DNA from: Candidatus Eisenbacteria bacterium
Lineage (GTDB): Bacteria > Desulfobacterota > Binatia > DP-6
NCBI GenBank assembly: GCA_035577985.1
Contig: DATJZY010000032.1
Coordinates: 1 to 64,000, forward strand
Direction of reading: 5' to 3'
DNA: 64,000 nt
The notes under the pieces are model-generated. The model was not told where the DNA came from. It saw nothing but the letters and a program-made list of their open reading frames with translations, and made no database searches. How positions within the stretch are numbered: position 1 is the stretch's first letter; each line of letters begins with the position of its first letter. Both the position numbers and the translations under genes were made by a program. Below, in pieces: positions 54,024 to 63,456 of the stretch.

Positions 54024-56387
54024 TCAGGGATACTTGAGGCCGTTCTTCGCCGAGGTGAACGCCTGCACGGCCGCCGAGCAGCTGTTCTGGTCGACTCCAC
54101 CCGTGGTCGACTGGAAGCCGACGGTGACCTGTATCGTTCCAGCCGGCGGCGTGGTGAACTCCACCTTCTTGCCCTTGGAGCCGAAGACCACCTTCCCGTT
54201 CGACTTGACCTTCACCCGCATGTCGCCGATGCCGCGCGCGGTCGGAGTCGGGGTCGGGCTCATCATCGACCAGAACTTGAACTCCCCGTGCTTCTTCATG
54301 AACTTGCCCGCCGGCACGTAGGCGCACAGTATCTCGCCGGTGCCCGTCTGCCGGATCTGCAGGTAGACGTTCTGCGTGAGCGGATCGATGCGCGAGGCGA
54401 GGCCCGCGGTCGCGAGCGTCGAGGTGAGCTTCATGAAGCTCTGGTCCGCGCCCTTGGGGCGGAAGCGTCCATGCTTCAGGCTCATCGGGAAGACCGAGAC
54501 GTCACCGCAGCAGTCGGGATCCTCGAAGTCGACGAGCCCGTCGCCGTCGTTGTCGATGCAGTCGCCGCAGATCTCCTGGGGCGGCTCGCAGCGTCCGTCC
54601 ACGCAGAGGAAGTCGCCGGGGCCGCCGTTGTTGCAGTCCTCGTTCGTGGTGCACTCGGGCTGACACGTCCCGCCGAGGCAGAGCTGACCCTCCGGACAGT
54701 CGGCGTCGTCGTTGCAGCCGGTGTGGCAGGTGCCGTCGAGACAGATCTGACCATCGGGGCAATCCTGGTCCGTCGTGCACTCGGGGAGCGTCGTCGAGGT
54801 GGTGGAGGTGGTCGACGGCGTGGTGGTCGTCGACGTCGTCGTGGTCGCCGGGCCGACCGTCGTGGTGGTCGTCGGGGCGACGGTCGTCGTGGTCGTGGTC
54901 GGCCGGGGCACGCAGTGGCCGTCGATGCAGATGAAGGCGCCGTCGGGCGAGCCGTCGTTGCAATCGGCGTCGGTCATGCACTCGAGCGTCGTCGTCGACG
55001 TGGACGTGGTGGTGGTCGTGATGGCGGCGGTCGTGGTCGTGGGCGCCGTCGTGCTGGTGGTGGTCGTCGTCGGGCCCTCGGTCGTGGTGGTCGTCGGGCC
55101 GACGGTCGTCGTGGTCGTGGTCGGCCGGGGCACGCAATGGCCGTCGACGCAGATGAAGGCGCCGTCGGGCGAGCCGTTGTTGCAGTCGGCGTCAGTCATG
55201 CACTCGAGCGTCGTCGTCGACGTGCTGGTCGTGGGCGTGGTGGTCGTGCTGGTGCTGGTCGACGTCGACGTACTGGTACTGGTCGAGGTCGACGTCGAGC
55301 TCGAGGTGCTGGTGCTCGTGCTGGTCGAGGTGGAGGTGCTGGTCGACGTGCTGGTGGTGCTCGTGGTCGTGCTGGTCGACGTCGTCGTGGGATGGTTCGG
55401 CACGCACCTGCAGTCGACGCACACGAGCTGTTCGGCGGCACGGCCGAGTCGCAGGAGGGCCAGCTCCTCGTCCGAGCAGTCCTCGTCGATCTCGCACTCC
55501 TCGTCGGGGCTCACGATGTCGTCGCCGCACACGCCCGGCAGAGCGGGTCCGATGGTCACGCTTCGAAGGTTGATGTCCTTCGCGACGAACTGACCCTCGA
55601 GGTTCGAGCCGGAATTGGCCTTCAACTGGGCGTTCGGTGCGCAGATGAGACCTTCCACCTGGTCCCGGCGCGAGAACTTGACGCTCTTGCCGTCGACGAA
55701 CCACCGGATCTCACTCGGCATCGGCGGGCTGGTGGCGCCGGCATCGGCTCCGATGGTGACGTTGTTGCCGACGTTCACCGCGTCCTCGACGTTCACCGTG
55801 GACGGACCCTGGAAGAGCGCGCGCGCCTCCTGCGACAGTTTCACGTCGCAGAAGGTGTACGTGCCGTTCAGGATCACGGTCCCAGCGGGGCCGCTTCCTC
55901 CGCCGTCGACGGTGAGATCGCCGTAGGTCCCCGGTGCGAGGTTCAGTGTGGCGCCCTTGGCGACTCTCACCGAGGCGCTCGAGTTGCAGTGCGGGAACGG
56001 GCTCGGATAGTGGCAGGCGACCGGCACGTTCGCGATGAGCGGGACGGGGACCGCAACGCCGATCACCTGCGGGCAGAGCGCAGACGAGCCTTTGACCGTG
56101 TTCGCGAACATGTCCTCGCAGGTGACCCTCGACTGCACGACCACCTTGTTCGCCGCCATGTCCGACGACGGGGCCAGGATCGTGCGCTCGTTCGTCAGCG
56201 TTCCATCGCTCACGCCGAGGTCGCCGTCTGCGATGCTCGCGGAGCGCACCTTCAGGCTGTGGCTGCCGAACAAGACGTAGGTACCGAGGTTCGTGCTCGG
56301 TTGCGCGGCGGCCGGGACGGCCGCCATGACCGGCAGAGCGGCGAGCAGAATCGAATATCGGATGAGAGCAGCCGCACGCTGGGTCAT
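54024..56387 (-). CDS. Large secreted Thr-rich, Cys-rich surface protein
   Basis: 787 residues. After the signal peptide (AAALIRYSILLAALPVMAA) comes a ~270-residue beta-helix-like domain. It contains NLGTYVLFGSHSLKVRSASI, NLAPGTYGDLTVDGGGSG and NVGNNVTIGADAG. A GVCGDDIVSPDEECEIDEDC element follows, then long Thr runs separating two near-identical Cys modules (DADCNNGSPDGAFICVDGHC type). Further CTxDxDCPxGQxCxxGxC units and a CIDNDGDGLVDFEDPDCCG element come next. A final ~150-residue domain ends the protein. A surface-exposed adhesive or glycosylated stalk protein is an inference. The ATG at 56387 starts the signal peptide; its ribosome binding site is weak. Confidence 0.78.
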   Translation of the reverse strand: MTQRAAALIRYSILLAALPVMAAVPAAAQPSTNLGTYVLFGSHSLKVRSASIADGDLGVSDGTLTNERTILAPSSDMAANKVVVQSRVTCEDMFANTVKGSSALCPQVIGVAVPVPLIANVPVACHYPSPFPHCNSSASVRVAKGATLNLAPGTYGDLTVDGGGSGPAGTVILNGTYTFCDVKLSQEARALFQGPSTVNVEDAVNVGNNVTIGADAGATSPPMPSEIRWFVDGKSVKFSRRDQVEGLICAPNAQLKANSGSNLEGQFVAKDINLRSVTIGPALPGVCGDDIVSPDEECEIDEDCSDEELALLRLGRAAEQLVCVDCRCVPNHPTTTSTSTTTSTTSTSTSTSTSTSTSTSTSSSTSTSTSTSTSTSTSTSTTTTPTTSTSTTTLECMTDADCNNGSPDGAFICVDGHCVPRPTTTTTTVGPTTTTTEGPTTTTTSTTAPTTTTAAITTTTTSTSTTTLECMTDADCNDGSPDGAFICIDGHCVPRPTTTTTTVAPTTTTTVGPATTTTSTTTTPSTTSTTSTTLPECTTDQDCPDGQICLDGTCHTGCNDDADCPEGQLCLGGTCQPECTTNEDCNNGGPGDFLCVDGRCEPPQEICGDCIDNDGDGLVDFEDPDCCGDVSVFPMSLKHGRFRPKGADQSFMKLTSTLATAGLASRIDPLTQNVYLQIRQTGTGEILCAYVPAGKFMKKHGEFKFWSMMSPTPTPTARGIGDMRVKVKSNGKVVFGSKGKKVEFTTPPAGTIQVTVGFQSTTGGVDQNSCSAAVQAFTSAKNGLKYP
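54790..55395 (-). repeat. Thr-codon tracts with a 222-bp direct repeat of a Cys module
   Basis: Three Thr-codon tracts occupy this stretch, separated by short Cys modules. The segment 54859-55001 recurs at 55081-55223, offset by exactly 222 bases (74 codons), with only about seven differences by eye. This indicates a recent in-frame duplication. Confidence 0.75.
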
Positions 56388-56572
56388 GGCCGAGGCCGTA
56401 CCACGTTGTCCCTCGCCCGCTCCAGTACCTGGAGGGTTCGCGGGTGGCGCAGGCGCGACTCCGAGATGAAGAAACCGCGCAACCCTGCACGACTCCGCCC
56501 AGGCATCGAGCAACAGGGCGATACTCTGGCGGCCGGGTCATTCCGGGCGCGGCCTGAGCCCCCCGAAGCCAG

Positions 56573-57670
56573 TCAGCGCGCGCTGTGACGAACCCGGAAG
56601 AGACGCAGCCCGAGCGCGAGGGTCGCCGCGCCGTACGCGACGAGCACGACGATCGGCTGCAGCACGTCGTCGAGTCCCCGCTGGCGCAGGATCAGGTCGT
56701 TCAGCCCCCGCATCGCCCACGTCGTGAAGAGCGCCGGCGAGATGCGATCCATCCATTGCGGCTGCATCGACTGTGGCCACCACAGCCCACCCAGCGCCGA
56801 GAGCGCCATCACCAACGAGAGGCCGATCGGCAGCGTCTGCTCGCGCGATCGGGCGAGTCCCGCGACCAGCATGCCCGCGGCGACGACGGCGAACACGGCC
56901 GCTGCCGTGAGCAGGAGGAACGCCGACGGCGAGGAGCCGAGCGAAACGCCGTACACCCAGTGGCCCCAGGCGAGGAGGAGGAGCATCTGGACGAAGCCGA
57001 CCACGAAGCGGGCCCCGAGCTTGCCGAGCAGGAGCCGCGTGAAGCCGCTCGGCGCGACGAGCAGGCGCACGAGCGTTCCCCAGTCGCGCTCGTCGTGCAT
57101 GCTCATCGAGGTGCCGAAGACGACCGCCAGCAGCACGAACATGAGCGCGAAGCCGGGCACGCGCTGCTCGAAGGCGTTGATCGAGAGGCTGCGGCCGGTG
57201 AGGTTCTGCTCGCGCATCGTGATCTTGTCCTCGGCGAACGGATCGGCGAGCGCCGCGGCCTCCTTGTCGATCAGGAGGAGCAGGACCTTCACGCCCTGCA
57301 CGTCGCTGCCCGCCGCGGGGTCGGTCAGGAGCTCGATCTCGGTGGTGTGACCCTGCAGGTAGCGCTTGCTCAACTGCGCCGGAAAGACCATCGCAGCCGC
57401 AGCCTCGTGCGTATCGCGCACCATGTGCTCCGCTTCGGCGCGGCTCACCTGCCGGACGTCCGCGTGGTCGGCGAGGAGCTTCGTGAAGGTGGTCGCTACC
57501 GGACCACCGTCCTCGTTCACGACCGGTACCCTGAGGCGAGGGCCTTCGTCGCCGTGCAGGATGCTCCCGGCGATGACGGTGATCACCAGGATCGGCATCA
57601 GCAGCGAGAAGACGAGCGCGCTGCGATCACGCAGGAAGATGCGCAGGTCGTTGCGGAAGACGGCGAACAT
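56573..57670 (-). CDS. ABC-2 type (exporter-class) permease
   Basis: 365 residues. The N-terminal membrane segment (ALVFSLLMPILVITVIAGSI) is followed by a ~130-residue extracytoplasmic domain. A bundle of five C-terminal segments contains SMSMHDERDWGTLVRLLVAP and WPQSMQPQWMDRISPALFTT, features of ABC-2/DrrB-like permeases with a large loop. It forms the membrane part of the ABC system encoded by the two genes upstream. It sits five bases after the MlaC-like gene. No MlaE or MlaD gene is present. Confidence 0.83.
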   Translation of the reverse strand: MFAVFRNDLRIFLRDRSALVFSLLMPILVITVIAGSILHGDEGPRLRVPVVNEDGGPVATTFTKLLADHADVRQVSRAEAEHMVRDTHEAAAAMVFPAQLSKRYLQGHTTEIELLTDPAAGSDVQGVKVLLLLIDKEAAALADPFAEDKITMREQNLTGRSLSINAFEQRVPGFALMFVLLAVVFGTSMSMHDERDWGTLVRLLVAPSGFTRLLLGKLGARFVVGFVQMLLLLAWGHWVYGVSLGSSPSAFLLLTAAAVFAVVAAGMLVAGLARSREQTLPIGLSLVMALSALGGLWWPQSMQPQWMDRISPALFTTWAMRGLNDLILRQRGLDDVLQPIVVLVAYGAATLALGLRLFRVRHSAR

Positions 57671-57675
57671 GGCGA

Positions 57676-58281
57676 TCAGGATCCTCCCGGCCCGGGCGCA
57701 CCGACTTTCGCGCGCAGGCGGTCGAGGAGACCCGCGAACGAATCCTTCGCCACGGCATTGTCGAACTGGGCGCGGAAGTTCGTCGCAAGGCTGACGCCTT
57801 CCACCTGGATGTCGGTCGCGCGCCAGCCGGCCGGCGTCTTGTGGAGGGTGTAGTCGACGGCGAAGCGATCGCCCGGCGTGACCACCTTCGTGGCGACGCT
57901 CGCCGTATCGCCGGACACCTTCTCGTCGCCGAACTCGAAGTCCGGCGCGTCGAAGAGGAGCAGCCGCTGCACGTAGGTGCGGACGAAGAACTCGTGGAAG
58001 AGCCGCATGAACTCGTCCACTTCGGCCGGGCTCCGCCCCTGGAGGTGCTTGTCGGCGGCCAGGCGCGCGAGCGCGTCGGTGTCGAGGAAACCACGCATGA
58101 GGTCGCTCAGCTCCGCGAGCTTCTGCTTGCGGTCACCGGAACCGCGGACGATCGCGTTGCTGCGGGTGAGCACGTCGCGCGTGAGGGCGAGCGGTCCCAA
58201 GACCTCGGTGCCGGACGCCGGCCGGGTGGCCGTGAGGATCGAGAGCGCCATCGCGACGATCGGCGCCGCCGCACGCACCAT
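57676..58281 (-). CDS. mlaC: MlaC/Ttg2D-family periplasmic lipid-binding protein
   Basis: 201 residues. The signal peptide (VRAAAPIVAMALSILTAT) is followed by the MlaC/Ttg2D domain: LMRGFLDTDALARLAADKHL, EFMRLFHEFFVRTYVQRLLL, VVTPGDRFAVDYTLHKTPAG, and the signature DIQVEGVSLATNFRAQFDNA. MlaC ferries phospholipid between outer-membrane MlaA and an inner-membrane ABC complex. Related HpnM proteins work in hopanoid transport. The start overlaps the ATPase stop by one base (TGATG). The symbol refers to the family; the partners here differ from classical Mla. Confidence 0.85.
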   Translation of the reverse strand: MVRAAAPIVAMALSILTATRPASGTEVLGPLALTRDVLTRSNAIVRGSGDRKQKLAELSDLMRGFLDTDALARLAADKHLQGRSPAEVDEFMRLFHEFFVRTYVQRLLLFDAPDFEFGDEKVSGDTASVATKVVTPGDRFAVDYTLHKTPAGWRATDIQVEGVSLATNFRAQFDNAVAKDSFAGLLDRLRAKVGAPGPGGS

Positions 58282-59276
58282 CAGTCACGCAGCTCCTTGC
58301 CGGTCAGCTCGAGGAACACGTCGTCCAGGGTCACCGGCGTGAGCCGGGTGCGGACGATGCCGATCCCGAGCGAAGCGAGGGTCCGGTAGATGCGGGGCAA
58401 TGCGAGCTGGGCACGCGTCGTGAAGACGCGCAGCTCGTTGCCGATCGACTCGACCTTCTGTACGCCCTCGATCGTCTCGAACGGCGCCAGCGTCTCCGGC
58501 GGCTGGTGAAGGCGCAGCTCGATCACCTCGGTCGCATGCGACAGCGCGAGGAGCTGCGGGAGCGTGCCGCACGCCACCACGAGCCCTTCGTCCATGATCG
58601 CGATGTGATCGCAGAGGTCCTCGGCCTCCTCGAGATAGTGCGTCGTGTAGAGAATGGTCGTTCCGCGGGCGCGCAGCGCGCGCACGGCGTCGAAGATGTG
58701 CGCGCGCGACTGTGGATCGACGCCGGCCGTCGGTTCGTCGAGGAGGACGAGCTTCGGGCCGTTCACGAGCGCGCAGCCGAGGTTGAGACGCCGGCGCATG
58801 CCGCCGGAAAACGTCGCGACGCGATCGTCCTTGCGGGCGGTGAGGCCCACCGCCTCGAGCGCCTCGGCGACCCGCTGGCGCCGTTCCCACCGCCGCACGC
58901 CGTAGAGCTCCGCGAAGAAACGCAGGTTCTCCTCGGCCGTGAGGGTCGGGTAGAGCGCCTCCTCCTGGGGCGCGACGTTCACCAGGCGGCGCACCGCGTG
59001 CACGTCGTTCACGACGTGCTTGCCGTGCACCCACGCGTCGCCGCCGGTCGGGCGCAGGCGGGTCGAGATCATGGAGAGGAGCGTCGTCTTGCCGGCGCCG
59101 TTCGGGCCGAGGAGCCCGAAGATCTGCGCTTCGCCGATCTCGAGAGACACCCCACGCACGACCTCGCGATCAGCGTAGCTCCGGCGCAGCTCGCGCAGCA
59201 CGACGGCCGACGACACCGCGCGCAGCTCGGGTCGCACGCGGTCGGGAACGACGAGAGGGCGTACGGAGGTGGTCAC
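58281..59276 (-). CDS. ABC transporter ATP-binding protein (DrrA/CcmA-like)
   Basis: 331 residues, cytosolic ATPase. Walker A GLLGPNGAGKTTLL, Q-loop region NVAPQEEALYP, signature FSGGMRRRLNLG, Walker B LVLLDEPTAGVD and H-loop TTHYLEEAE are intact. The ~100-residue C-terminal extension (ELRLHQPPETLAPFETIEGV, DDVFLELTGKEL) is typical of ATPases partnering ABC-2 exporter permeases, not of MlaF. Its GTG start overlaps the MlaA stop (GTGA). It energises the system whose membrane part is the ABC-2 permease. Confidence 0.9.
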   Translation of the reverse strand: MTTSVRPLVVPDRVRPELRAVSSAVVLRELRRSYADREVVRGVSLEIGEAQIFGLLGPNGAGKTTLLSMISTRLRPTGGDAWVHGKHVVNDVHAVRRLVNVAPQEEALYPTLTAEENLRFFAELYGVRRWERRQRVAEALEAVGLTARKDDRVATFSGGMRRRLNLGCALVNGPKLVLLDEPTAGVDPQSRAHIFDAVRALRARGTTILYTTHYLEEAEDLCDHIAIMDEGLVVACGTLPQLLALSHATEVIELRLHQPPETLAPFETIEGVQKVESIGNELRVFTTRAQLALPRIYRTLASLGIGIVRTRLTPVTLDDVFLELTGKELRD

Positions 59277-60130
59277 GTCGGATCCTCGAGCGCCACGGTC
59301 ACGACTTGGTTCGTGACGTGCGCGGTGTCAGGCGCTTCGTCGCGCGCCGCCCACATCCACTCTTTGTCGCGGTCGGCCATGGCTCGCTCGATCGTCTGAT
59401 GCCGGCGCTGCAGGTAGCCGTTTCGGGCCGCGCTGTAGAGGTCGATGACGCTCTCCTCGACGTTGTCGTACAGCTGCATGTTGAGGGAGCGCTCGTTCAC
59501 GGCCGACACGATCGAGCGGGTGAGGCCGACGAAGAACGGGGTCGTGACCAGGTACGACAGCGGATCGAGGAGGGAATCGAGCCCGCGGCCGATCGCGTCC
59601 CGAACCGTCGTGGGCGGGAGGGTCGGGAGCACGAGGAAGGGGCCGGGCCCGACGCCGAGGAGCGCGAGCGTCTCTCCGGCGTCCGCCTCGCTGGGATCGA
59701 GATGGAACTCGGAGGCGATGTCCATGACGCCCGCGACCCCGATGGTGGTGTTCACGAAGAAGCGCGCCAGCTCGCGCCCGGCACCCAGGGGACGCGCCTG
59801 CAACAGGTTGTTCACGAAGCGGCGCGGCATGTCGATGTTGTTGAGAACACGGGCGACGCTGCGCCGGGCGATCGGAGGCGTGACCGCTGCCCATCCGGTG
59901 GCGAGCGGCTTCACGATCCAGCGGTCGAGGACGTCGTGGTTGAAGTCGAACATCGCCTCGTTGAACGGCTGCCAGGGATCGTAGTCCTCCTGGAGAACGG
60001 CATCGTCCGGCCCGGTGTCGATCGCGTTGCGGGCGAGGCCGGACGGGCGGGCGCACCCCGCCATGGCCACGACGACCACGAGCCCCACGAGGGGGCGCAG
60101 CGACGGCGCTTTGTGCCTCTGTCGATTCAT
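59273..60130 (-). CDS. mlaA: MlaA/VacJ family outer-membrane lipoprotein
   Basis: 285 residues. The lipobox VVVVAMAGC is followed by the MlaA fold: EDYDPWQPFNEAMFDFNHDV, the conserved FVNNLLQARPLGAGRELARF region, FFVNTTIGVAGVMDIASEF, and VLPTLPPTTVRDAIGRGLDS. MlaA removes phospholipid from the outer leaflet of the outer membrane in partnership with porins. It is the first gene of the four-gene operon and divergent from the endonuclease/exonuclease/phosphatase gene. Confidence 0.9.
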   Translation of the reverse strand: MNRQRHKAPSLRPLVGLVVVVAMAGCARPSGLARNAIDTGPDDAVLQEDYDPWQPFNEAMFDFNHDVLDRWIVKPLATGWAAVTPPIARRSVARVLNNIDMPRRFVNNLLQARPLGAGRELARFFVNTTIGVAGVMDIASEFHLDPSEADAGETLALLGVGPGPFLVLPTLPPTTVRDAIGRGLDSLLDPLSYLVTTPFFVGLTRSIVSAVNERSLNMQLYDNVEESVIDLYSAARNGYLQRRHQTIERAMADRDKEWMWAARDEAPDTAHVTNQVVTVALEDPT

Positions 60131-60258
60131 CGTGGCGGCTCGCGGGGGTCCGATACCCCACCCGTGGCCGATAGGCTCCCCTTATGCTCGTACGACGCCC
60201 CCGTGTCGAACGCGGCATGAAGGGCCCGATGAGAGGCAGGGCGTTTGCGCCCGAACGG

Positions 60259-60287
60259 TTGTTCGAGGAGCGCCCTCTGTGTAGATA
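60259..60287 (+). promoter_or_regulatory. Candidate promoter of the EEP-family gene
   Basis: TTGTTC (60259-60264) and TAGATA (60282-60287) are spaced by 17 bases, a good sigma70-like geometry. The predicted start near 60294 lies about 28 bases before the ATG at 60322. Confidence 0.4.
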
Positions 60288-60321
60288 CCTCGCCCGTCCT
60301 GAGACGGGGAGATCCGGCTGC

Positions 60322-61146
60322 ATGCTGCGGGTGCTGACGCTCAATTGCTGGAACGTATCCGAGCCCCTGGACGCGCGTATGGCGATCGTTCGGCGCGGTG
60401 TGGCGGAGCTTCGCCCGGACGTCGCGGCCTTCCAGGAGGTCGTCGTCCGTCGCGACGGCTTCGACCAGGGGGTGCTCCTCCTGGACGGCATCGGGTACGC
60501 GCGCGCCTTCGGCCCGGCCTTCAGCTGGAGCGACGATGGAATCATGGTCCCTCCCCACGAGCATACCCGCGTCGGCTTCGGCAACCTCATCGCCTCGCGC
60601 TGGCCGATCCTGCGGAGCGAGGTGCGGCGCCTGCCCGGACGGGAGGGCGACGAGCCACGGACCGTCCTCGGGGTGATCATCCAGAGCCCCGACGGGAACC
60701 TGCCGGTTCTGACGACGCACCTCGACTGCGAGGCCGATCACGGGTGGGTGAGGGAGCGCCAGGTGCAGGTGGTCGACGACTTCGCCCGCGATCTGGCGGC
60801 GGAGGCGCACCTTCCGGCGATCGTCATGGGCGACTTCAACGCGCACCCCGATTCCGCCGAGATCCGCTACCTGCGGGGTCTGTCGCCCCTCGACGGGCGG
60901 CGAACCTGCTTCCAGGACGCCTGGGAGATCGGCGGTCCCGGTGGACACGGTCACACCTGGGACAACCGCAACCGCTTCGCGACGCTCGATCCGGGTCCCG
61001 ACGGGCGCCTCGACTACATCTTCGTCGGCGCACCGGACGGTCGGGGGCGCGGCGCCATCGTCTCGGCGCGGCTCGTATTCGAGGATCCGACCGGCGACGT
61101 GTTCGCGAGCGACCACTTCGGCCTGTTCGCCGAGATCGACGTCTGA
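60322..61146 (+). CDS. Endonuclease/exonuclease/phosphatase (EEP) family protein
   Basis: 274 residues. EEP metal and catalytic motifs: LRVLTLNCWNVSEP (Asn), DVAAFQEVVVRRDGF (Glu), VLTTHLDCEADHGW, IVMGDFNAHPDSAEIRYLRG, DGRLDYIFVGA and ASDHFGLFAEIDV (terminal Asp-His). Cytosolic, as no signal peptide is seen. The family includes nucleases, sphingomyelinases and inositol phosphatases; which one applies is not evident. I chose the ATG at 60322 because it starts immediately before the first strand and lies behind a promoter candidate; the frame opens 46 codons earlier. Confidence 0.85.
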   Translation: MLRVLTLNCWNVSEPLDARMAIVRRGVAELRPDVAAFQEVVVRRDGFDQGVLLLDGIGYARAFGPAFSWSDDGIMVPPHEHTRVGFGNLIASRWPILRSEVRRLPGREGDEPRTVLGVIIQSPDGNLPVLTTHLDCEADHGWVRERQVQVVDDFARDLAAEAHLPAIVMGDFNAHPDSAEIRYLRGLSPLDGRRTCFQDAWEIGGPGGHGHTWDNRNRFATLDPGPDGRLDYIFVGAPDGRGRGAIVSARLVFEDPTGDVFASDHFGLFAEIDV

Positions 61147-61160
61147 GCGCGGGCGCTCAG
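61143..61160. repeat. Perfect palindrome spanning both convergent stop codons
   Basis: CTGAGCGC-GG-GCGCTCAG forms an 8-base stem containing the stop codons of the EEP gene and the convergent sulfotransferase gene. It has no T-tract. It could act as a small bidirectional terminator or RNA 3' end stabiliser. Confidence 0.45.
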
Positions 61161-62380
61161 GCCGGCGCGGGCACGCCCCAGCGATCCCAGTAGGCGCGAT
61201 AGCGCTCGCGCTCGACGCGCTCGTCGAGCCCGAACTCCGCCAGCGAGTAGACGTGCGGGCCCTCGGCGTCCTTGCGGTTGCGGCCGAGATGGCGCTGCAT
61301 CGCCTGCTCCGCCTCGGCGGAGAGCGGCAGATCGAAGTGACGGTAGATCCGCCGCACGATCCCCATCGGATCGCGCACCAGGTCCGTGTACTGCACGTCG
61401 ACGAAGCGCTCCGGCGGCGCGCAGCCCTCGTCGCGGGCTTCGAAGCCGCGCCGGATGTCGTCGGCGAGGAGCCTGGTCACCTCGTCGCCCACCTTCACCG
61501 GGTCGACGAAGGCGCTGAACGTCTGCCGCAGGACCACGTGGAGGCTCGTGACCGACGCCACCACTTCCAGCGGATCGCGATGGGTGACGACCATGTTCGC
61601 GTCCGGGTACGTCGCGCAGAGCGCGCGGAGTCCCGGCAGATGCGGTGGCGCCTTCAGCACCCAGCGCTCGCCGGGACAGCGCCATTGCAGGTTCTGCAGG
61701 AACTGGCGGTGGTAGCGGTACGCCGGGCGCAGGTCCTGGCGGTCGAGCCACGACTGGTACGACGGCACGAACCAGGTCGACGAGAACTGGAAGCTCAAGA
61801 ACGAGTGGCTGAGGATGACGACACACTCCTCGGGAAGCTGGGCGCCCACCGGATGGATCGTCTTGAAGCGCGGCGCGAGGCGCAGGAACCAGCGGATGTC
61901 GCGCGCCGCGCGCTCGATGCGCGGATCGGTGTCGTACGTGGCGCGGTCGGGTGGCGGCGACGGGCTGCGCAGCTCCCAGTGGCGCGGAACCCGGTTCGCG
62001 GGATCCTGCGCCAGCAGGCCGTGGAGGAACGTCGATCCGCTGCGCGGGAGGCCCAGGATGAAGAGGGGGCGCCGGATCTGCTCGTCGGTTATGGCCGGAT
62101 GCAGACGCCGATCGCGCTCCATCAAGAGGCGATTCATGAGCATGCCGGTGAGATCGTGGCGTGCCGCGATGCGGCCCACGATGCTCAGGCGCGACTCCTC
62201 TTCGATCGACTGCATCAGGCGGCGCAGCGGATCGCGGAACGACGGATCACCGAAGTCGTCGAGCCCGGTGCGCCGACGTGCGCCCGCGAGCAGGCTCTCC
62301 GGGTCGAGCCGTACGAGGCGCCCCGCCCCGTCGAAGATGCGGGCGCCTCGCAGGACGAGCTGCGGCCATGCGCTCGTCAT
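61157..62380 (-). CDS. Sulfotransferase family protein
   Basis: 407 residues. The PAPS 5'-phosphosulfate loop LFILGLPRSGSTFLHGLLAQ lies at residues ~105-124, and the 3'-phosphate element THRDPLEVVASVTSLH near 260. Both are intact. An N-terminal ~100-residue helical region precedes them. It transfers sulfate from PAPS to a hydroxyl or similar group; the acceptor is unknown. Its ATG overlaps the stop of the upstream HpnL-like gene (ATGA, 62377-62380), so the pair is translationally coupled. Confidence 0.85.
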   Translation of the reverse strand: MTSAWPQLVLRGARIFDGAGRLVRLDPESLLAGARRRTGLDDFGDPSFRDPLRRLMQSIEEESRLSIVGRIAARHDLTGMLMNRLLMERDRRLHPAITDEQIRRPLFILGLPRSGSTFLHGLLAQDPANRVPRHWELRSPSPPPDRATYDTDPRIERAARDIRWFLRLAPRFKTIHPVGAQLPEECVVILSHSFLSFQFSSTWFVPSYQSWLDRQDLRPAYRYHRQFLQNLQWRCPGERWVLKAPPHLPGLRALCATYPDANMVVTHRDPLEVVASVTSLHVVLRQTFSAFVDPVKVGDEVTRLLADDIRRGFEARDEGCAPPERFVDVQYTDLVRDPMGIVRRIYRHFDLPLSAEAEQAMQRHLGRNRKDAEGPHVYSLAEFGLDERVERERYRAYWDRWGVPAPA

Positions 62381-63405
62381 GGCGTCCGTCCGCGCGCGGC
62401 GCCGTCGCGGGCGGCGAGGGCCGCGGAGGCGGTCTCGAGCTGCCAGACGACGAGCCCGGGGATGCCGAGGATCAGCTCGCGGACGCGCTTGGAGAGCGAG
62501 AGCGCGATCGAGAGGTCGGGCGCGAACCCGAAGATCCGTCCGAGCAGGAGGAAGCCGCCCTCCTGCACACCCAGCGCGCCGGGGACGGGGAAGGCCGCCG
62601 TCCGCACCGCTTCGCCCAGGCTCTCGATGACGAGGGCCGTCGCGAGGTCGACGGGATGGCCGAGGAAGTGCATGGCGAGCCAGATCTCGCCCGCACCGAA
62701 CAGCCAGCTGAGGAAGTGCCAGACGCTCGAGCCCGCGAGACGGCGGCGCTCCGCATACAGGTTTCCGATCGAGACATCCATCGCTTCCGCGCTCGAGGAG
62801 AGCGATGCCCAGTCGGGCGACCGGACGAAGCGGGCGATCGCGCGCGCGAGCGCGCCGAACATGCCGCGGCGCTGCAGCGCGTAGAACCCGGCGGCCACCG
62901 CGGCCGTCGCCGCGATCCCGGCGATCGCCGGGCCCGCCAGGCGCTCGCCGCCCACGTGGGCGAGGAGCAGGGAGAGGCCGAGCAGCGTGAACAGGATCTG
63001 CCCCAGGAGGTGCAGCGTGATGTCGACGACGACGCTGGCGCCCGAGAGCGTCCCCGGAACGCCGGCGCGCGCCAGGAGCTGGGCACGGACCAGGTTGCCG
63101 CCCACGTGCAGCGCCGGCAGGAGCTGGTTGATCGACTCGGCGATCCATCGCGCGCGGAAGAAGGTGCGGAAGCGCGGGCGCCGTTTCTCGTCGAACAGCG
63201 TGTACCAGCCGAGCGCGCTCGCGAGCAGGGGTACCGTGTGGAACAGCGCGACCCAGAGGAGCCCCACGCCGGCCACGGCGAGCGTCCGGGTGACGTCGCG
63301 GATCCCCTGGTAGGCGAGGATCGCGGTGAAGAGCGCGAGACCCAGGAGCAGGCCGGCGTGCGCGAATACCACGACCTGCCTCGTACCGGAGGGCCCTGCC
63401 GACAT
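62377..63405 (-). CDS. HpnL-like / lysylphosphatidylglycerol-synthase-type membrane protein
   Basis: 342 residues with eight or so membrane segments. The C-terminal signature VPGALGVQEGGFLLLG followed by SLSKRVRELILGIPGLVVWQ is close to HpnL-type proteins and the UPF0104/MprF-N transporter group. Such proteins act in hopanoid or polar-lipid metabolism, possibly as flippases. With the sulfotransferase it may handle a sulfated lipid or isoprenoid (inference). No squalene-hopene cyclase is in the window. I chose the ATG at 63405 over a GTG at 63426. Confidence 0.75.
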   Translation of the reverse strand: MSAGPSGTRQVVVFAHAGLLLGLALFTAILAYQGIRDVTRTLAVAGVGLLWVALFHTVPLLASALGWYTLFDEKRRPRFRTFFRARWIAESINQLLPALHVGGNLVRAQLLARAGVPGTLSGASVVVDITLHLLGQILFTLLGLSLLLAHVGGERLAGPAIAGIAATAAVAAGFYALQRRGMFGALARAIARFVRSPDWASLSSSAEAMDVSIGNLYAERRRLAGSSVWHFLSWLFGAGEIWLAMHFLGHPVDLATALVIESLGEAVRTAAFPVPGALGVQEGGFLLLGRIFGFAPDLSIALSLSKRVRELILGIPGLVVWQLETASAALAARDGAARGRTP

Positions 63406-63456
63406 CGGGATCAGAGCCTCTGGCACGAGCCGCGCCGGACGGCAAACCGCGCCGCG

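Follow-up and report, generated by a model that had tools for sequence, protein, structure and literature searches.

Results

Gene layout of the locus

The window, a stretch of 64,000 nucleotides, comes from a Candidatus Binatia genome and contains a four-gene operon on the minus strand (positions 56573 to 60130), which encodes an MlaA, a DrrA/ABCA-like ATPase, an MlaC and an ABC-2 permease (Table 1). According to the ORF coordinates, the ATPase gene overlaps mlaA by 4 nt, mlaC overlaps the ATPase gene by 1 nt and a gap of 5 nt lies between mlaC and the permease gene. Four such tightly arranged genes, in an operon without mlaE, mlaD and mlaB, had been described in the initial annotation; the coordinates together with the Pfam matches bear out the former, and the gene content of the operon, within which none of mlaE, mlaD and mlaB was found, bears out the latter. 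A PF03372 gene on the plus strand lies between two minus-strand gene groups; no orthologue of its product was found near the ATPase–MlaC–permease loci (hereafter triads) of other genomes, and the protein is probably not part of the system.

Table 1. Positions of the operon genes and of neighbouring genes in the window
Product	Coordinates	Strand	Length (aa)	Family match and remarks
ABC-2 (type V) permease	56573..57670	-	365	PF12698
MlaC/Ttg2D-family periplasmic lipid carrier, triad clade	57676..58281	-	201	PF05494
DrrA/ABCA-like ABC ATPase	58281..59276	-	331	PF00005
MlaA-family lipoprotein	59273..60130	-	285	PF04333
Endonuclease/exonuclease/phosphatase-family protein	60184..61146	+		PF03372, E=4e-24
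Sulfotransferase	61157..62380	-		PF13469; linked gene
HpnL-family flippase-like membrane protein	62377..63426	-		TIGR03476, PF03706

The ATPase and the permease resemble lipid exporters

The ATPase contains an ABC_tran domain (Pfam PF00005, E=6e-34), and the motifs GPNGAGKTT, SGGM and LLDEPTAGVD can be read in its sequence. The designation of this protein as a DrrA-like ATPase with a C-terminal extension is borne out by a score of 280 bits against the NCBIfam model drrA (TIGR01188), which is below the cut-off of 312, and by a match to DrrA1-3_C (PF13732; E=5e-5, 24.3 bits), which is slightly below the cut-off of 27.4. Its closest solved relatives are the ABCA phospholipid transporters ABCA3, ABCA4 and ABCA1. 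The permease matches ABC2_membrane_3 (PF12698) with E=1e-32 and 114 bits, and the top Foldseek match of its model (pLDDT 74) is the ABCH-9C lipid exporter, a ceramide pump; NosDFY is also among the matches. The protein has a periplasmic domain of approximately residues 45–160 with a fold like that of 3cni; this domain and the membrane part are conserved to the same degree. A DrrA-type ATPase with a C-terminal extension together with an ABC-2 permease is a feature of ABC-2/DrrAB-type exporters, the relatives of ABCA and ABCH, and it is present here. The ABC-2/type V proteins include an importer, ABCA4, and a case that does not involve transport, NosFY.

MlaC belongs to a separate clade and is coupled to the exporter genes

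MlaC was assigned through PF05494 (E=1.5e-31, 110 bits), and its AlphaFold model (pLDDT 90) matches solved phospholipid-bound MlaC/Ttg2D structures. Among the NCBIfam models, HpnM scores above E. coli-type MlaC, with 57 bits against a cut-off of 160. The protein is a member of a sharply separated orthologue group that is present in 29 of the 145 genomes of the class, and in a phylogenetic tree the triad MlaC proteins are monophyletic and separate from the MlaFED-linked MlaC proteins. The residues of E. coli MlaC that bind MlaD (L76, Y82, I130 and R153) were mapped onto the triad MlaC; several of these positions vary in MlaFED-linked MlaC proteins too.

As far as contig ends allow, the gene order ATPase–MlaC–permease was found at all 28 orthologue loci of relatives, the families of which are divergent (40–75% identity), and the coupling also occurs beyond Binatia in one Myxococcota MAG. 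The recurrence of the triad is far above chance. The earlier proposal that MlaC is wired to an ABC-2 exporter is supported by this conservation, and of the four-gene order that was to be looked for in relatives these three genes are kept, whereas MlaA is variable and lies outside the conserved core.

MlaA and a TolC-family protein are probable alternative outer-membrane partners

The MlaA protein (PF04333, E=3e-59, 200 bits) contains the sequence ...VVVAMAGC-ARP, which provides a plausible lipobox. MlaA accompanies the triad in two lineages, that of this genome and one other, and the remaining lineages have TolC; MlaA was rejected as a core component. In families f6, f11, f13 and f15, a TolC-family protein (PF02321) adjoins the triad wherever this could be assessed, at 22 of 22 loci. 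No TolC-family partner was found at the locus in the window and no triad-type TolC anywhere in the same genome, which rules out that TolC was merely relocated in this lineage. Genome-wide, the orthologous TolC was found in none of the five MlaA-type genomes tested, of which two are 99% or more complete; it is present in nine of nine TolC-type genomes. MlaA at the triad and TolC are mutually exclusive, and in a concatenated tree the TolC-type and MlaA-type lineages follow the phylogeny. MlaA is one of two alternative outer-membrane partners, and in this lineage it is likely to be the outer-membrane partner of the system.

In the MlaA tree, the protein from the window groups with the MlaA proteins of other triad operons and apart from MlaFED-linked MlaA, and the triad MlaA proteins of families f1 and f9 form one clade (support 99/96), which also holds two MlaA proteins of genome G022. 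Given this separate clade, an origin of the triad MlaA in the MlaFED-linked or convergent-pair MlaA of the same genomes was rejected. Among the recurrent families, those matched by more than one of the 80 neighbouring proteins scanned, there was no HlyD-type adaptor.

A linked HpnL–sulfotransferase gene pair

The HpnL-family protein scores 337 bits against TIGR03476 (cut-off 196); its gene overlaps the start of the sulfotransferase gene, and the pair is conserved. Of the 13 best-scoring sulfotransferase matches in other genomes, 12 are orthologues that adjoin the second permease or the triad. At least 12 genomes of family f6 have the pair linked with a duplicated permease, and one locus (L098) consists of a single contiguous run of HpnL, sulfotransferase, TolC, ATPase, MlaC and permease. 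It is possible that the sulfotransferase is a substrate-making enzyme, and our leading guess for the substrate is a sulfated lipid that the HpnL–sulfotransferase pair makes or modifies. This may be valid for some lineages only, because the sulfotransferase gene does not adjoin the triad in families f9, f13 and f15, is located elsewhere in genome G008 and is separated from mlaA here by the opposite-strand gene. A hopanoid as the obligatory substrate, considered on account of the HpnM-like MlaC and the nearby HpnL gene, was ruled out by the HpnM score of 57, below 160, and by the missing cyclase: no squalene-hopene cyclase above the cut-off was found in G021, G019, G034 and G044, which are all triad-bearing and include nearly complete genomes.

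Other Mla and MCE genes

No MCE-domain MlaD or MlaE permease is encoded in the operon or at any triad locus scanned. Elsewhere in the same genome there are four MlaE loci and MlaD matches on five contigs. Contig 126 carries an mlaE-F-D operon, and on contig 167 there is another mlaC/mlaA pair, in which the two genes are convergent; neither of the two MlaC genes of the genome adjoins mlaE-F-D. Because of these mlaE and mlaD genes, the ABC-2 operon supplements an MCE-type system and does not replace it, and the initial description "instead of MlaFEDB" does not hold for the whole genome. Relatives have a complete mlaF-E-D-A-C operon in addition to the triad, and in several genomes the triad MlaC coexists with MlaFED operons that have their own, distinct MlaC. 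According to the initial annotation, a complete mla locus that includes an mlaC, if present in the same genome, would count against an alternative pathway; such loci were found in relatives, but this leaves the reading standing because the triad MlaC forms a separate clade.

Discussion

On balance, we consider it probable that the triad functions in a transenvelope lipid exporter, in which MlaC would be the periplasmic carrier and the outer-membrane partner interchangeable; its direction, substrate and complex are what we infer here. The ATPase and a permease dimer would draw an amphipathic lipid out of the inner membrane and expel it towards the periplasm, in the manner of ABCH/ABCA-type exporters. 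The MlaC homologue would stand in the position of the HlyD-type adaptor of ABC–TolC systems: bound to the permease at its conserved periplasmic domain, it would cover the acyl chains and then carry the lipid through the periplasm to the outer-membrane acceptor, which would be MlaA in this lineage and one other and a dedicated TolC-family channel in all others. The export direction is argued throughout by analogy, and it gains from the TolC partner and from the lipid-exporter relatives of the ATPase and permease. However, the direction chiefly known for MlaA is the retrograde one, which counts against export, as do the importer ABCA4 and the non-transport case NosFY among the ABC-2/type V proteins, and no instance of a TolC channel cooperating with an MlaC shuttle is known to us. 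Of the alternative envelope lipid pathway, perhaps for export, that was proposed initially, the exporter coupling is retained and has been joined by the TolC partner and the lipid-exporter relatives, while MlaA has lost its place in the core. A more specific version is offered tentatively: MlaC would replace the HlyD adaptor of an ABC–TolC exporter and diffuse with a sulfated lipid as its cargo, and in evolution TolC and MlaA could stand in for each other as outer-membrane acceptors; if true, it would represent a new lipid-export architecture and a natural case of an outward-working MlaC/MlaA.

A retrograde, Mla-like retrieval of phospholipids, in which MlaA takes misplaced lipid out of the outer membrane, MlaC carries it inward and the ABC-2 pair takes it up in place of MlaFEDB, seems rather unlikely to us. 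MlaA and MlaC are retrograde parts in E. coli (PMC10245069), all four genes stand in one operon here, no counterpart of the relatives' mlaF-E-D-A-C operon was found in this genome and no mlaC lies next to mlaE-F-D on contig 126. However, most triads have TolC, an export channel, and no MlaA, the ATPase and permease are exporter-like, and relatives keep a separate mlaF-E-D-A-C operon for that job.

A DrrAB-like efflux of solvents or drugs, in which MlaC scavenges hydrophobic compounds from the periplasm for TolC or MlaA, would fit the family similarity to DrrA/DrrB, the presence of a TolC partner and the past association of MlaC/Ttg2 with "toluene tolerance"; moreover, ABCH transports an insecticide as well as lipids (PMC12578276). 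We regard this as unlikely, as MlaA is not known as a drug channel, the linked HpnL and sulfotransferase genes are lipid-related and Ttg2D is a glycerophospholipid carrier with room for four acyl chains (PMC8035174).

It is very unlikely that the ABC-2 pair is a force transmitter like NosFY with NosD, which would release lipid from MlaC or drive its transfer without translocation: the periplasmic domain of the permease is conserved like the membrane part and NosDFY is among the Foldseek matches, but the best-matching fold is that of the exporter ABCH-9C, which has a tunnel for lipid and whose transport mechanism has been described (PMC12578276), and a NosFY-like function does without an outer-membrane channel partner. 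That the MlaC and MlaA of the operon really serve the MlaEFD of contig 126 and stand beside the ABC-2 genes without meaning is scarcely credible, for although the genome has only two MlaC genes and neither is beside mlaE-F-D, the ATPase–MlaC–permease order is unbroken across divergent families and is kept where the mlaFED operon has another MlaC.

The proposed transenvelope exporter is of interest since there is a dispute of many years over which way Mla-type systems move lipid, and since little is known of carriers that export lipids to the outer membrane. With MlaC coupled to an exporter and MlaA swapped with TolC, the direction and docking of one carrier fold become testable, and if the sulfotransferase link holds, it would also suggest that a widespread phylum of uncultured bacteria has a surface lipid not known so far. 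Our literature search, judged by titles and abstracts, returned no description of MlaC with TolC and an ABC-2 transporter, and the system looks like a previously undescribed route to the cell surface for a lipid.

Several known systems share parts with the one presented here, and two of them, DevBCA-TolC and the Veillonella MlaEFD genes, serve as precedents for the exporter reading. The triad MlaC resembles HpnM of the HpnM/HpnN hopanoid transport system and an HpnL gene is nearby, but the HpnM score of 57 bits is far below 160 and in several triad genomes no squalene-hopene cyclase was found. ABC-2 exporters of the YbhGFSR and YhiI-RbbA-YhhJ type work with an HlyD adaptor and TolC; common to both are a DrrA-like ATPase, a PF12698 permease with a periplasmic domain and, at most triad loci, the TolC partner, whereas here MlaC takes the place of the adaptor, no recurrent HlyD is seen and MlaA can replace TolC. 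DevBCA-TolC/HgdD, which exports a heterocyst glycolipid (PMC6161253), is similar in that an ABC transporter and TolC take a lipid outside, but DevB is a membrane fusion protein, and here there is MlaC and no fusion protein was seen. In Veillonella, MlaEFD genes are followed by tolC and tamB (PMC10665443), so that tolC again adjoins the genes of a lipid ABC transporter; that system is of the MCE type with an elongated MlaD and without MlaC and MlaA, whereas the triad has MlaC and no MCE protein. With the Mla pathway itself (MlaA-OmpC, MlaC and MlaFEDB) the operon shares the MlaA and MlaC families and their folds; it differs in that MlaE, MlaD and MlaB are absent from it, the inner-membrane part is an ABC-2 exporter, MlaA can be replaced by TolC and MlaC is of a separate clade.

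Results

The four minus-strand genes of the initial annotation were borne out by ORF coordinates, Pfam and NCBIfam (see table), and from mlaA to the permease gene they follow one another with a 4-nt overlap, a 1-nt overlap and a 5-nt gap. Their contig is 67 kb long and belongs to a 5.7 Mb genome that is 99.5% complete; those of its relatives that bear a name are MAGs of Candidatus Binatia. The same contig encodes a large secreted-looking, adhesion-like protein (PF20597) with long Thr/Ser repeats and DUF7107/DUF7305 similarity.

Coordinates of the operon and of other loci in the same genome
Feature	Position	Strand	Remark
HpnL	62377-63426	minus	TIGR03476, 337 bits
Sulfotransferase	61157-62380	minus	
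MlaA	59273-60130	minus	family confirmed by Pfam and NCBIfam
ATPase	58281-59276	minus	family confirmed by Pfam and NCBIfam
MlaC	57676-58281	minus	family confirmed by Pfam and NCBIfam
Permease	56573-57670	minus	family confirmed by Pfam and NCBIfam
Secreted-looking protein	54024-56513	minus	
Convergent mlaC/mlaA pair	L016:13737-15224		contig 167
mlaE-F-D operon	L017:7643-12278		contig 126

With the window MlaC as query, 145 genomes of the class yielded 29 strong matches (identity at least 40%, E <1e-35), separated by a clear gap from the next ones, which drop to 33% identity and E ~1e-25. The ATPase gene lies upstream of mlaC in 28/28 relatives and the permease gene follows wherever the contig continues (that of the triad locus L096 ends before it). 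In the tree, MlaCs of this ATPase-MlaC-permease triad cluster separately from MlaFED-linked MlaC (100/100 support). A scan of the permease alignment against 84,980 species matched Binatia, several MAGs whose label gives another class or just 'bacteria', and one Myxococcota MAG (L136, CAMYLJ010000010.1), which has the triad (52/37/45% identity) and near it neither a recognisable TolC nor MlaA. Binatia genes also occur in a MAG titled Klebsiella pneumoniae (L117, L127; CAMBZJ010000008.1), a title that looks like a database mislabel.

The proposed wiring of MlaC to an ABC-2 exporter is thus upheld by a gene order kept across relatives, whereas mlaA adjoins the triad only in two families, upstream in f1 (window genome, G008) and downstream in f9 (G124, G135 and the named MAG L134). 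In families f6, f11, f13 and f15 the place beside the triad is taken by an outer-membrane efflux protein (PF02321), directly in 20 loci; like all partner counts here, this one comes from related species rather than independent events. TolC could be assigned to two further loci: in G042 TolC and the remainder of the permease lie together on a second contig, and in G019 TolC sits at the end of contig 13, pointing the way it would if this contig joined the one with the triad. Contig ends hide the neighbour at another two loci. An orthologous TolC is present in 9/9 TolC-type genomes and was not found genome-wide in G000, G008, G120, G124 and G135; G120 (87% complete) has neither MlaA at the triad nor TolC. 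Among the genomes examined, none has both at the triad. By the tree there must be two or more separate groups of MlaA type. In f1 and f9 the triad MlaAs cluster with two MlaAs of G022 (99/96), apart from MlaFED-linked and convergent-pair MlaA.

That the operon stands 'instead of' MlaFEDB did not hold genome-wide. Elsewhere the window genome carries four MlaE loci, one further gene each for MlaC and MlaA, and MlaD matches on five contigs, and the operon therefore supplements MCE-type machinery and does not substitute for it. A separate intact locus with mlaC, named earlier as grounds for refutation, was found as a complete mlaF-E-D-A-C operon besides the triad in three relatives (G008, G051, G005); it does not overturn the proposal, since the triad MlaC forms a clade of its own. 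The mlaE-F-D genes on contig 126 have no adjoining mlaC. The gene before them encodes an MprF-like flippase-domain protein, the gene after them a protein with a zinc-finger-like N terminus. On contig 167 an mlaC/mlaA pair stands tail-to-tail, its divergent MlaC being ~25% identical to other MlaC. Such convergent pairs recur in f1, f6 and f11 genomes (L217, L218, L222, L224-L227, L229-L232, L244), with no mlaE or mlaD recognised within ~3 kb on either side, and their MlaAs form a clade of their own.

The MlaC model (pLDDT 90) matches E. coli MlaC and phospholipid-bound structures, e.g. 2qgu, 6hsy and 5uwb. The permease was modelled with moderate confidence (pLDDT 74). Among solved folds the insect ceramide pump ABCH-9C fits this model best; in ABCH lipid is squeezed outward (PMC12578276). 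The nearest solved relatives of the ATPase are ABCA phospholipid transporters. The modelled periplasmic domain of the permease resembles 3cni and, with a mean commonest-residue frequency of 0.71 vs 0.66, is no less conserved than the membrane part, as expected if it docked a fixed partner.

Discussion

The triad is best read as moving lipid outward, given that TolC is the partner in most lineages. The lipid would be carried by MlaC, at the place taken by the HlyD adaptor in other systems; no HlyD adaptor recurs among the triad neighbours. In the window genome the closest two-gene paralogues lie on contigs 113 and 115 (40-45% for the ATPase, 42-47% for the second half of the permease) and lack MlaC. 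This suggests an origin of the triad in which mlaC was added to an ATPase-permease exporter of this kind.

As to the substrate, a sulfated lipid is the leading guess, because a sulfotransferase gene is linked and its product is homologous to the solved structures 2zq5 and 2z6v, which are mycobacterial sulfotransferases. In the window this gene is overlapped by that of HpnL, and both lie upstream of mlaA with one opposite-strand gene between; locus L098 has HpnL-sulfotransferase-TolC-ATPase-MlaC-permease on a single strand, the sulfotransferase and TolC genes touching. Against this guess, the sulfotransferase does not adjoin the triad in f9, f13 and f15. In at least 12 f6 genomes it lies beside a second permease copy; HpnL is also present, as far as the contigs reach, in the five of these loci that were read completely, and no triad-type ATPase was found nearby. 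L123-L127 are such HpnL-sulfotransferase-permease operons of f6 genomes, lacking an ATPase of their own. This second permease may be a heterodimer partner of the triad permease. A hopanoid as obligatory substrate is ruled out, since some nearly complete triad genomes are missing the hopanoid cyclase.

In the literature searched, mostly papers available without subscription, nothing was found that describes MlaC together with an ABC-2 exporter. The operon has MlaA and MlaC in common with the Mla pathway but departs from it at the inner membrane. The mode of working proposed here resembles that of the ABC lipid exporter DevBCA-TolC (PMC6161253); however, the triad system is no member of that kind, because the fusion protein is missing. 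The nearest published link between Mla and TolC that we found is the mlaEFD-tolC-tamB arrangement of Veillonella (PMC10665443).
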